A DNA stretch of 64,000 nt from Ignavibacteriota bacterium (GTDB taxonomy: Bacteria > Bacteroidota > Ignavibacteria > Tepidaquicellales > Tepidaquicellaceae): contig JACREY010000020.1 of the NCBI GenBank assembly GCA_016218085.1, positions 186,001 through 250,000 on the forward strand, written 5' to 3'. The notes beneath the pieces were generated by a model. The model was given only the letters and a program-made list of their open reading frames with translations, did no database searches and was not told the DNA's origin. Both the position numbers and the translations under genes were made by a program. Within the stretch, counting starts at the first letter, position 1. Every line of letters begins with the position of its first letter. This document shows positions 14,342 to 62,907 of the stretch, piece after piece.

Positions 14342-14869
14342 ATGAAAGCAATATTTATAATTGTAACTTCAATTTTACTGCTTTTCCTATTCAATGATAT
14401 TTTCGCACAAAACAGAGAAGGTGTTGCGCCAACACCCATAACCGCAAGCATAACTGCTAAAGGTACTGTCTTATCTCCGATATCAGTCTCCACGACCAGA
14501 GACCTTGATTTTGGCAATGATATTTTACCCGGAATCATAAGGAGCATCGATAAAAATTCAAACTCTGCAGGAAAGTTTTCAATAGTGGGAGAGGCAGGCA
14601 AGGAAGTAAATATTTTGATTACTGCACCGGAAATGCTATATAACGGTACTAACTCACTTCCATTGCAATTCACTTATTCGGACGGTGGCTATCAGATTAC
14701 AGGGGGTCCCGTAGTTGAATTTGACCCGACAGTTCCCGTAAATGCAACACTCGGTACGGACGGTGTCCTTGATGTCTATCTCGGCGGATCTGTAAGCCCT
14801 GCTTTCAGGCAGACTCCAGGAGAATATTTAGGTACTATTATTGTTGAGTTCAATTATACCGGTAATTAG
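14342..14869 (+). CDS. DUF4402-type pilin-like protein 1
   Basis: A 175-residue exported protein (signal peptide about 1-22 ending FAQ). The DUF4402 pattern is visible as TRDLDFGNDILPG, AGKFSIVGEAGKEV, YLGGSVSP and PGEYLGTIIVEFNY. Such proteins are presumed beta-sandwich subunits donated by a chaperone to an usher. A strong GGAAGGA lies before the ATG, and an inverted repeat ATTAAGAAT/ATTCTTAAT (14288-14296, 14312-14320) precedes it in the leader. It is the first gene of the chaperone-usher-like locus. Confidence 0.75.
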   Translation: MKAIFIIVTSILLLFLFNDIFAQNREGVAPTPITASITAKGTVLSPISVSTTRDLDFGNDILPGIIRSIDKNSNSAGKFSIVGEAGKEVNILITAPEMLYNGTNSLPLQFTYSDGGYQITGGPVVEFDPTVPVNATLGTDGVLDVYLGGSVSPAFRQTPGEYLGTIIVEFNYTGN

Positions 14870-15034: not shown

Positions 15035-15493
15035 ATGAAAAAGAATATAATAGTACTGATATTATTATTAGCTTCATTATGTCATTCACAGACGGGAAAC
15101 CTGCAGGTAACGTATATGCGGGACCTTGATTTTCAGCAAATCATTCCGGGTGTTTTTAAAACTATAACCGAAACCAGCCCTTATGCGGGTAAATTCGTTA
15201 TAACGGGAGACGGTACAAGAATGACTGTATCGGTTGCCTTTAATCTCTCACAGAATATTATTTCCGGTTCAAAACAAATTCCCGTCAGATATACTGCAAC
15301 CCACAGCATATATCCTAACGATAATCAGCCGGGTATCCCGTTTGATCCTTATGCGGGCACTACTTTGATATTTGATGATAAAATAAAAGAATATTATGTT
15401 AAAATCGGCGGGACTATCAGTCCTGCAAACGTGCAGTTATCCGGAGTTTATAATTCATCCGTTATTATAATTTTAACAACAGTTGCAAATTAA
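15035..15493 (+). CDS. DUF4402-type pilin-like protein 2
   Basis: A 152-residue paralog of the preceding gene with signal peptide MKKNIIVLILLLASLCHSQ. It shares RDLDFQQIIPG, YAGKFVITGDG, YYVKIGGTISP and SGVYNSSVIIIL. It lacks the long linker of the first gene. The stop is three bases before the chaperone gene, so the two are co-transcribed. Probably a second structural or tip subunit. Confidence 0.72.
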   Translation: MKKNIIVLILLLASLCHSQTGNLQVTYMRDLDFQQIIPGVFKTITETSPYAGKFVITGDGTRMTVSVAFNLSQNIISGSKQIPVRYTATHSIYPNDNQPGIPFDPYAGTTLIFDDKIKEYYVKIGGTISPANVQLSGVYNSSVIIILTTVAN

Positions 15494-15496
15494 TCC

Positions 15497-16318
15497 ATGA
15501 AGAATCATTTTCTGCTAATAATCGCTTTATTGTTCCTTTCATTCAGGCTTACGAATTCACAGGTTACAGTTGCACCGGTAACGGTACACCTCGATGACCA
15601 TAATAAAAACGGTTATATCATAGTCAGGAATAATTCCAACTCTTCACCGTGGGAAGTAAATATCGAGATGAAATTCGGCTATCCGAAATCTGATTCCCTT
15701 GGCAATACTTTTATTTTCTTCCCGGAAAATGTAAACGATAACGACCCATCAGCGGTTAAATGGGTAAACTTTTACCCGAGAAAGTTTATACTTAAGCCCT
15801 ATGAAGAACAGAAGGTAAGAATTGCCGCTAAACCGAAAAATTTAAAAGAAGGGGAATACTGGGGAAGACCTGTGGTTAGTACAAAAGCAGTGAATCTTGA
15901 AGATACCTTAAACAAAGAAAGCATCAGCGTGGGAATCGGTCTGGAATTTAAAACCGTGATAGCCCTGAATTACAGGAGGGGAAAAACCTCGACCGGGATT
16001 AAAATCGAAAATTTCACGGGAGAATACAGGAACAATAAATTTATCTTATTTGCAAAACTAAACAGAACAGGGAATGCCGCTTATATAGGAAATCTGATTG
16101 TTAGAATATCCGATAGTAAAGGAGAAAAAATCAGGCAGTCAAGTCAGGATATTTCGGTTTATTATGAACTGAACAAAAAAATCGAAGTGGATTGTGCAAA
16201 TTTGAAAAGCGGTAAATACCAGGTGGAAATTGAACTGAATACTGACAGGGAAGAAACCGGAGGGAAAATAATCAAAGGTAATACTGCGACTGAAAAAATT
16301 ACCGTGATTGTGAACTGA
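15497..16318 (+). CDS. Periplasmic pilus-assembly chaperone (PapD-like)
   Basis: A 273-residue exported protein (signal peptide about 1-21, ending NSQ). It begins VTVAPVTVHLDDHNKNGYIIVRN, the first strands of a PapD-like domain. FYPRKFILKPYEEQKVRIAAKP resembles the strand that complements pilin subunits, and GEYWGRPVV follows. A second Ig-like domain (about 165-273) completes the boomerang. It would hold DUF4402 subunits in the periplasm. Its TGA overlaps the ATG of the usher reading frame. Confidence 0.75.
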   Translation: MKNHFLLIIALLFLSFRLTNSQVTVAPVTVHLDDHNKNGYIIVRNNSNSSPWEVNIEMKFGYPKSDSLGNTFIFFPENVNDNDPSAVKWVNFYPRKFILKPYEEQKVRIAAKPKNLKEGEYWGRPVVSTKAVNLEDTLNKESISVGIGLEFKTVIALNYRRGKTSTGIKIENFTGEYRNNKFILFAKLNRTGNAAYIGNLIVRISDSKGEKIRQSSQDISVYYELNKKIEVDCANLKSGKYQVEIELNTDREETGGKIIKGNTATEKITVIVN

Positions 16319-18896
16319 TGAAAACAGGATTTACATTAATATTGTTTTTTTTTTATCCATCAATGCGGCTGAAGCCTTTGAATCAGAATTAGACTCAAAC
16401 CTTTTAAAAAATAATCCTCCCGCAGAAGAAACTCCTTTGCAATTATCAGCGGAAAAAATTGGTACTGTCGATATTTCCGGTTATACAAGCGGTAAAACAC
16501 TTTTCATTCCGGTCGGTGAACTGTTTTCATTCCTTAAAATTAATTTTAATATATCAAAACACAGTTCCGAAATAAGCGGGTATTTTGTAGATGAATTAAA
16601 TAAATATAGTATTAATATTCCCGGAAATACGGCTGTAATAAAAAATAAAATCATTCCTGTTTCCAGAAAGGATTTCTATATTACCGAATCGGATATTTAT
16701 ATCAATTCCGGTTTGTATATGGATATATTCGGAATTAAGCTGGTTTTTGACTTTAACCAGCTGAAAGTTTTTCTTTCCTCAGACGGAAAACTGCCTGCTG
16801 AAATTGAAATTGAAAGAGAGCTAACACGCAATAAACTGGAATCAAACAGAAGAGAAACAGGAGAAACTGATTTTACCATACCAAGGTCGAGAAAAATTCT
16901 TGGTGTTGGTATGCTGGACTGGATGCTGTCTTATAGCCATACTTCTCCCGTAAACGATTATTATTCGTACAGTATGTCCCTGGGTTCTGAAATTCTCGGG
17001 GGGGATTTAAATGTTTTTTCAACAGGTAATAAGGATGATTTTTTTAATGGTGAGAATGTTAACTGGAGATGGAGATATGCGGATGATAAAAAGTTTTTCA
17101 GGCAGGGAATTGTTGGCAATATAAGCCTTGGGTCGGGATTGCTTTCCGGTACGCAGGGTTTCCAGATTACAAATTCTCCTCCGGTATCGAGAAAATCTAT
17201 TGGAAAATATAAAATATTTGACAAAACCGATCCCAACTGGAAAGTGGAGCTTTATATTAATAATGAGTTTATTGATTATACGTCTTCGGATAACAGCGGT
17301 TACTTTGAATTTAATGTGCCGCTATTGTATGGTTCGAATTATATTACTTTAAAATATTACGGTCTTTCAGGTGAAGTACGCACCGAGGACAGGGTCATAC
17401 AGGTACCGTTTAATTTCATTCCCGAAAAAACAGTTGAATATTCCGTGAGCGGAGGGACTCTTAAATACGGTAATCACGATGCTTTTTCCGAATCATCCCT
17501 TTTCTGGGGCATAACTCAGTTCCTGACTGCCGGTTCTAATCTGGTTTATCTGAACGAACCGGGTTTAAAGAAATTTTATCCCGGGGTAAATTTATCATAC
17601 AGAATTTTCGATAATCTTGTGCTCAGCTCGGGTTATTTCCATAATGTAAAAGGTACTGCAAGCCTTAGCTTATTATTGCCTTCACAGATTTTTACAACTT
17701 TAACTTTTATCAGGTACGGAGAGAATGATTTCTTTAATCCTGCTGAATATAAAGAAGAAAAAAATCTGACTGCCTATATTCCCGTCTCTTTTAAAAATTT
17801 CTCGACAAGCTTCCGAATAAACGCAAGAAACGTTTTATCCCAAAATTACGATTTTGTTTTTCTGAACACAGGGTTATTCGCAAATTATGACAGGTTGCAG
17901 GGCAGTGTTATAACAAGCGGCTCCTGGTCCAAGGCAAGCGGTAATTATACCGAAACAGGATTGACATCTGTATTTAGCTTATCTTACAGGATATTAAGTG
18001 ACTTCTTAATCAGACAGCAAACAGAAACGGAGCATTCAAAAGGGAGAGTTACAAGAACCGGAATCTATTTCGATAAAAGCATATTTAAAACCGGATGGCT
18101 CTCTGTCTTTGTATCAAGGGATTTCAGCCAAAACTCTTACTACGGCGGACTTACATTCAGATATGATTTTTCTTTCGGAAGATATAATTCCGGTTATTAT
18201 TTGAATAACGAAGATTGGTACTCTTCCCAAACAGTCAGCGGCTCGATAGGCTATGACCAGTTTAACAGCAGGATTATTATGAATAATCAGAATATGGTAT
18301 CGCGCGGAGGATTATCTCTCATTCCTTTTATAGATTATAATAATAATGATATTATAGATAAAAACGATAGAATAATAAATTCGGGTTTTAACTCTTCCGT
18401 GAATGCAGGTAAACTAATTAAATCGGAAGAAAACGATAAACACTGGTATGTTGATCTTAATTCATATGAAAATTATCGTCTGGAGGTTAATCCTGTATCA
18501 TTCGATAATCCTTTGCTCAGACCGAAATATAAATCTTTTTCCGTAGCAACTGACCCGAATCACTTTAAGGTAGTTCCAATACCTGTGTTCATATCAGGAA
18601 TGGTTAGCGGAAATGTGTTGCTTAATTCGGAATCAGGAACAAAAGGAATTTCGATGCTGAAGATTATACTTGAATCGCTTGATGGAAAAATATTGTTCGT
18701 GAAATCAACTTTTTCAGATGGAGAATATATTTTTGATAATATTCCTCCGGGTATTTATAGAATCTATCCCGAAAGTTCGGAATTGTCCAGACGTTCCCTA
18801 TCGATGCAATCAGCCATTCAGACTGTTGAAATTAAAATTTCAGAGGACGGAGATGTAATAGACGGAATAGATTTCCTTTTAACGAAAGAAAAATAA
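16318..18896 (+). CDS. Usher-like outer-membrane protein, signal peptide frameshifted at T10
   Basis: The ATG at 16318 overlaps the chaperone stop and encodes MKTGFTLILFFF, but after ten T (16345-16354) that frame soon stops. In the other frame the sequence continues LSINAAEAFESE without interruption to 18896. One extra T would restore a signal peptide plus a protein of about 860 residues; as read, the open frame starts only near 16437 (819 residues). The mature part has an N-terminal domain, GFQITNSPPVSR and a conserved inserted sandwich (VELYINNEFIDY), many barrel-like strands and a C-terminal regulatory-like domain. Role: pilus subunit translocation, by family resemblance. The break is either a sequence error or slippage-based switching. 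Confidence 0.7.
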
Positions 18897-62133: not shown

Positions 62134-62907
62134 ATGAAAAAAACTGACACTTATTTTTTATTATTTCTGATAATATTTTTATCATTTAATTCGTTTGCCC
62201 AGATGAATAATGAGACAGCAAAGAAATTATCGAATCCGCTGGGATTTATTAGTATTCCGTTTCAAAGCAACTTTGATTTTAATATTCCTCCTAACAACGC
62301 TTTCAGGTGGACAATGTATCTGATGCCTATAATACCAATTAGTATAAACAAGGATTTTAATTCATTAAACAGAATCGTGCTACCGGTGATACATCAGAAT
62401 GATATATTTAAGGACAAAACACAGACAGGTATTGGTGATTTACTGATAAATGCTTTTTTATCCCCAAAAAGCGAAGAAATAGTATTTGGCATTGGACCTT
62501 CAGTATATATTCCAACCGGCTCACCGCTGCAGTTGACTTCCAGAAAATGGGCTGCGGGTCCGGGTGTAATTTCAATGAAATCAGAAGGAAGACTGATATT
62601 TGGTGCATTGCTTTTCCATTTGTGGACAGTGACCGGTGATGCATCCAGACCTGACTTCAGTTATACGTATTTTCAGCCGGTATCATTATATAATTTTAAC
62701 AAAGGCTGGGGGATTGGTCTGAGCGCAGAAATAAGCAATGAATGGAAAAAGAATGTCACAAACGGCTCGGTGATTTTTCAGGGTTCTAAATTAATGAATT
62801 TCTCCGGTCAACTGGTAAATTTTGTTTTAGGTCCGAAGTTTTTTTTTGGAGATTTCAACAGACCTGATTTTGGAATCAGATTTTCTGTAAATTTACTTTT
62901 TCCTTAA
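62134..62907 (+). CDS. Outer-membrane barrel-like protein
   Basis: A 257-residue exported protein (signal peptide about 1-22, SFAQ). It starts with ETAKKLSNPLGFISIPFQSNFDFNI and has GIGDLLINAFLSP, VFGIGPSVYIPTGS, LFHLWTVTGD and FGIRFSVNLLFP at the end, a pattern of transporter-like small barrels. It lies 18 bases after the giant PAS protein and 37 before another PAS sensor, so may be co-transcribed with them. Substrate unknown. Confidence 0.75.
   Translation: MKKTDTYFLLFLIIFLSFNSFAQMNNETAKKLSNPLGFISIPFQSNFDFNIPPNNAFRWTMYLMPIIPISINKDFNSLNRIVLPVIHQNDIFKDKTQTGIGDLLINAFLSPKSEEIVFGIGPSVYIPTGSPLQLTSRKWAAGPGVISMKSEGRLIFGALLFHLWTVTGDASRPDFSYTYFQPVSLYNFNKGWGIGLSAEISNEWKKNVTNGSVIFQGSKLMNFSGQLVNFVLGPKFFFGDFNRPDFGIRFSVNLLFP

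Follow-up and report, generated by a model that had tools for sequence, protein, structure and literature searches.

Inspection of the window, a stretch of 64,000 nt from an Ignavibacteriota bacterium, revealed a chaperone–usher operon whose usher-like gene is split inside its signal peptide by a run of ten thymines, leaving the start codon and the remainder of the gene in different reading frames. The same break recurs in three other species of the bacterial family; both the usher reading frame and the tract are under selection, and the family has two further genes with like sites. The tract probably serves as a conserved site of programmed frameshifting, where slippage of RNA polymerase would leave only some of the transcripts able to yield usher fit for export. 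We infer that transcription, not translation, is the source of the added base and that the purpose of the arrangement is dosage.

A split usher-like gene in a pilus operon

The window lies on contig C15 of its genome of origin (G000; 3.3 Mb in 22 contigs), and the tract, starts and frames of the usher gene were read directly from its sequence. On the plus strand, the operon comprises, in order, the gene for a putative pilin with a DUF4402 match (14342–14869; E = 1.6e-6, above the cut-off), a gene for a second putative, DUF4402-like pilin (15035–15493; a weak match of E = 0.0064, under the cut-off), a PapD-like chaperone gene (15497–16318) and the usher-like gene. This order is identical in L010, a locus of a related genome; genes for pilin, PapD-like chaperone and usher thus stand together at both sites.

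By profile comparison, the chaperone matched a Polaromonas chaperone with PapD_N (E = 5.5e-6), and a profile of ten homologues of the large protein aligned along 804 columns with a plasmid-borne protein of Polaromonas (profile match 100%; E = 4e-43). The gene for the latter comes after DUF4402 genes and adjoins an annotated fimbrial chaperone with PapD_N. Searches of the large protein with the usher models of Pfam and NCBIfam, including Usher/FimD, returned zero hits at E ≤ 1, and we refer to it as usher-like on the grounds of gene order and homology to the Polaromonas protein. The predicted model of the chaperone was weak (pLDDT 61) and contained two Ig-like domains, with Caf1M, CsuC, FimC and PapD among many Ig-fold matches; via structure, the chaperone mostly matched Ig domains of other proteins. 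The usher fold predicted from a two-sequence alignment (pLDDT 35) was unusable.

The chaperone gene ends in a TGA (16316–16318) whose last base is also the first of the split usher gene's ATG at 16318 (..AACTGATGAAA..), an arrangement that makes translational coupling of chaperone and usher likely. Nine codons, counted from this ATG, precede the T10 tract (16345–16354, plus strand), which falls where the hydrophobic core of the signal peptide is encoded and is the proposed slippage site. The ATG frame encodes MKTGFTLILFFF followed by out-of-frame residues, reading YPSMRLKPLNQN past the tract, and ends at TAG 16390–16392. The resulting 24-codon ORF (16318–16392, plus strand), with 11 codons after the tract and 12 out-of-frame residues, supplies the n-region and half of the hydrophobic core. 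The usher frame, one base off the ATG frame, is open from 16314 to TAA 18894–18896 (860 codons); past the tract (16355–18896, plus strand), it encodes the c-region of the signal peptide (LSINAAEA) and the mature outer-membrane protein.

One extra T, or equivalently a −1 ribosomal shift, fuses MKTGFTLILFFF with LSINAAEAFESE and yields a good signal peptide, MKTGFTLILFFFLSINAAEA|FESE, with a charged start, a hydrophobic core and A-x-A ahead of the mature protein. The preliminary description of the gene was accurate in these respects: the T10 run interrupts the signal peptide, a single added T restores it in full, and the remainder of the gene is unbroken. The usher of 819 residues mentioned there reflects TTG 16437, since this is the first ATG, GTG or TTG in the usher frame of the window genome. 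Alternative starts were considered and rejected, as none of these three codons occurs here before 16437, and a TTG within the tract of the three related species would give a signal peptide too short to function.

Conservation of the break and selection on the tract

The usher search covered 29 genomes of the bacterial family, one per species and, so far as we can tell, for the most part assembled from metagenomes. Besides the window genome (genus g1), four genomes carry the gene (G005, G020, G026 and G027), so that three of the five carriers belong to one genus (g8: G020, G026 and G027). A scan of genome contigs for other members of the usher family returned only L010, which is the G005 sequence; viral contigs returned none, and a search of plasmids gave distant homologues only.

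The ushers of the three g8 species share 52–58% protein identity with the window usher and 60–77% with one another. Each is preceded by an ATG overlapping the chaperone stop and by an equivalently placed T9, and in each the usher frame is displaced exactly as in the window, so that the frame junction is conserved with the same +1 offset in four species. Their composite signal peptides, as read by eye, are MKRILQNTVFF+LLICCIRVSFA, MRRFILNMVFF+LLVKFAAA and MKRIAAYMVFF+LLVRCLAA (for G020, G026 and G027, listed together). Measured from the ATG, the tract ends after 37 nt in the window vs. 34 nt in the g8 species; because a lead longer by two and a tract longer by one sum to 3 nt, the frame offset is kept. 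Tract length is fixed at T9 in the three g8 species, and the T10 of g1 comes with a compensating lead.

Comparing tract length and frame between relatives, as the preliminary description had proposed, therefore places four of the five usher genomes out of frame in the identical manner, with G005 as the only one that is probably in frame. There, a T9 follows a TTG that overlaps the chaperone stop, and the lead contains two Ns, which give a continuous frame when counted as two bases. NN runs are frequent in this assembly and looked frame-neutral in clean coding cases. G005 is thus a probable in-frame relative, a state that would fit phase variation or a lineage that is past the need for slippage. 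On this reading of G005, an extra base is not required in every species.

Synonymous sites are saturated in all usher pairs (pS 0.73–0.84). Where computable, dN/dS was about 0.1, indicative of purifying selection, and the usher ORF is intact in all five genomes. Given the codon usage of each usher, the chance of V-F-F-L remaining encoded by GTT TTT TTT TTG is about 0.006 in G020, 0.0013 in G026 and 0.0006 in G027. Judging from its survival despite saturated synonymous sites, the tract itself is under selection.

Homopolymer runs and like sites in other genes

A census of homopolymers (runs of eight or more A/T or seven or more G/C) over 864 kb of the window's own genome (26%) found only the T10 of the usher to break a gene, bearing in mind that such a census is blind where the wrong frame happens to be open upstream, as in the lipid A acyltransferase gene of G026, whose break was revealed by the G027 homologue. 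Within the same 864 kb, 118 A8 runs inside genes were intact. Of the A/T runs of this genome, the share lying in coding sequence was 0.85, 0.81, 0.78 and 0.68 for lengths five to eight, respectively, and 0.38 for length nine. Nine is the reported threshold for slippage-prone runs in many bacteria (PMC1088944), and A/T runs of at least about this length are present at the usher frame junction in the window (T10) and at the equivalent position in four relatives (T9).

In G026, 26 overlapping T9/A9 matches in about 3.1 Mb correspond to 24 separate runs. When each of these A/T runs of at least nine was inspected, breaks were seen in dnaX, the lpxL-like acyltransferase gene and the usher gene only, all of them +1. 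Breaks in the acyltransferase and usher genes were also seen in G027, whose dnaX was not among the matches to the dnaX query.

As about 14 of the T9-containing signal-peptide genes sampled family-wide are in frame vs. one that is broken, a break shared by several species is unusual. The single broken case, a DUF1028 gene of G005 (L143, contig C24), carries a T9 break (+1) in its signal peptide in this genome only, with 21 readable homologues intact; because it is lineage-specific, sporadic breaks must also occur. A btuB-like TonB-receptor gene of the window genome (L126, C21:423810) combines an out-of-frame ATG with a T9 and was rejected as a break, its signal peptide being complete from its own downstream TTG. 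Four further loci with an out-of-frame ATG and a T9 (L267, L269, L276 and L278) were left out of the count, since their ATGs seemed to lie inside other genes or out of frame with them. Two putative signal peptides, at L253 (G014 C2:222771–222802, T12) and L260 (G001 C106:3232–3269, T10), are apparently broken and need −1 or +2. The window itself holds a T9 at 62839–62848, in frame near the 3′ end of the ORF 62134–62907, where slippage would alter the C-terminus.

The gene for a lipid A acyltransferase (lpxL-like; PF03279, E = 5.9e-44), an enzyme expected to matter for the envelope, may be the stronger finding of the two. Of 24 genomes, 19, spanning 11 genera and including the window's, have exactly nine Ts in this gene and a break needing +1 (loci L352–L371; in the window genome L358, C16:121028–121798, minus strand), with the upstream frame encoding an N-terminal helix, GFxIRLFPLxxxQRxGKxxGL. 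The exceptions are G014, where the T9 is in frame, and G007, G019, G023 and G025, where the gene is tractless and continuous. Tract length is always nine in the broken genes, with acyltransferase sequences down to 42% identical. Nineteen equal frames at random (three-way) would have a chance near 1e-9, a value that ignores shared descent and, the genomes being related, serves as a guide only. Because the in-frame acyltransferases carry other residues at the tract site, residues there vary freely where no slip is needed. We found no discussion of this break in the literature searched.

An A10 run is kept in dnaX in the five genomes examined (L291–L295). It is in frame in G000, G001 and G005, where a slip leads straight to a stop codon. 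In G020 and G026, by contrast, a C-terminal stretch in which both share the motif KELFxAEE becomes readable only with one additional A. The dnaX runs of Thermus and Chlorobi are known or proposed sites of transcriptional slippage (PMC3711429).

Transcriptional slippage and its alternatives

In the mechanism that we favour, RNA polymerase would slip on the T9–T10 tract during transcription of the operon and add one U to some of the transcripts. Ribosomes finishing the chaperone would restart at the overlapping usher ATG, as the overlap suggests. On transcripts with the added U, the first half of the signal peptide, encoded from the ATG, would be joined to the second half and the usher, giving an exported outer-membrane protein, while unslipped transcripts would yield a dead-end peptide of 24 residues. 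Pilins and chaperone, encoded upstream, would come from every transcript, which would set a low usher-to-chaperone ratio. At the efficiencies known for slippage on T/A runs in secretion genes (15–55%, as cited in PMC4256274), the usher would be a minor product, as might suit a gated pore needed in few copies; dosage is our hypothesis for this arrangement.

The same product and the same conserved frame would result from a programmed −1 ribosomal frameshift on T_TTT_TTT, with the event placed in translation, a reading that we regard as unlikely. Ribosomes are known to slip on such runs (PMC3711429), and each of the four broken ushers has the heptamer correctly phased, just as any T9 holds T_TTT_TTT in whatever phase. 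Seven Ts would suffice for a ribosome, yet exactly nine are present in 19 of 19 broken acyltransferase genes, at a site where the in-frame homologues differ, and the coding share of A/T runs falls at nine, not at seven. A stem downstream of the usher tract was no better than in shuffled sequences in the four species (z = 0.79, 0.44, −0.78 and −0.56), a stimulatory downstream structure not always being needed for −1 ribosomal frameshifting. We place most weight on transcription because the run exceeds seven Ts and is held at nine, the acyltransferase residues are free to vary and a folding signal is missing.

Phase variation, put forward in the preliminary description, would have DNA polymerase slippage alter the tract length and toggle the usher, with the genomes caught in the off state. 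A surface pilus gene with a tract at its start that a single added T turns on would suit such switching, as would the related G005, in frame with T9. Nevertheless, all four species with readable sequence are in one and the same off-frame, T9 persists in the three g8 species despite saturated synonymous sites, and the 3-nt difference to the window (2 nt in the lead, 1 nt in the tract) preserves the offset. Likewise, the sampled T9 signal-peptide genes are nearly all in frame, no further broken tract was found in the 864 kb of the window genome, MutS is present, and 19 genomes share an lpxL-like gene that is out of frame at a fixed T9, the A10 sites of dnaX also being fixed. Polymerase slippage is favoured over phase variation because of the T9-gene survey, the depletion of coding runs at nine, the A10 of dnaX and the T9 of the acyltransferase gene, and we consider switching decidedly improbable. 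Still less credence is due to the competing explanation named alongside it, a sequencing or assembly error that shortened a true T11 in an intact gene: homopolymers are error-prone and the few, long contigs (22) make long reads possible, but three separately assembled genomes of other species share the off-frame with T9, and no other break at runs of eight or more emerged in 864 kb. The least probable reading, and a barely credible one, is a decaying gene or a cytoplasmic product made from TTG 16437, the first standard start in the usher frame. Against it stand the intact ORF in all five genomes and the purifying selection on it. Moreover, an outer-membrane protein would be non-functional if it lacked a signal peptide, and a conserved c-region, ending in A-x-A ahead of the mature part, is still present in the usher frame.

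Programmed transcriptional slippage, the reading that we prefer, has precedents in secretion-apparatus genes, e.g. mxiE, spa13, spa33 and mxiA of Shigella type III secretion. For mxiE and spa13, the long product requires slippage, at efficiencies within the range cited above (reviewed in PMC5009743). The Shigella genes encode proteins on both sides of the event, whereas the usher site splits a signal peptide and makes export as a whole dependent on the slip, in a different secretion system and phylum. The dnaX runs of Thermus and Chlorobi (A9/A10) resemble the usher tract in length (9–10) and in having a slippage-dependent frame, but transcriptional slippage there yields two functional proteins, tau and gamma; the usher has one plausible functional product. 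In tssM of Citrobacter rodentium (type VI secretion), a broken secretion gene is rescued by transcriptional slippage of about 20–25% (PMC4256274); its tract is poly-A (A11) and lies some 800 codons into the gene, and both variants are used. Phase-variable homopolymer genes of pili and other surface structures are alike in having a tract at the gene start where one unit flips the frame; they differ from the usher, where the off-frame and, within g8, the length of the tract do not change from species to species, as in the family's other proposed slippage genes.

Should the slip prove real, polymerase infidelity at a signal peptide would set how much of one component of a secretion machine is made relative to the others. 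Annotation pipelines would call the split usher a pseudogene or start it at the wrong TTG, and with genes of this kind handled in such a way, secreted proteins made by slippage have likely been overlooked. The acyltransferase site in 11 genera suggests that a biosynthetic gene of the ordinary kind can retain transcriptional slippage over long times, a point relevant to the true cost of slippage sites. There is about an even chance that the whole family routinely relies on RNA polymerase slippage to build its outer membrane, with the acyltransferase gene of 11 or more genera readable only via slippage on its T9 and the usher having joined it, its export hinging on transcriptional infidelity and possibly tunable by growth conditions.

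Homologous ushers (L049, L053, L055, L056, L057, L059, L062, L068 and L073; family f8, genus g25) have no ATG, GTG or TTG just before the signal peptide. Most g25 ushers contain a conserved ATC (ATC TGC GC. CG.) 6–8 nt past a GGGAG-like site, which suggests a non-canonical AUC start as another route to weak usher expression. L051 is unlike the other g25 ushers in having an ATG four codons upstream. In a more distant usher, L054 (G310), a T10 run lies in the signal-peptide region, in frame.
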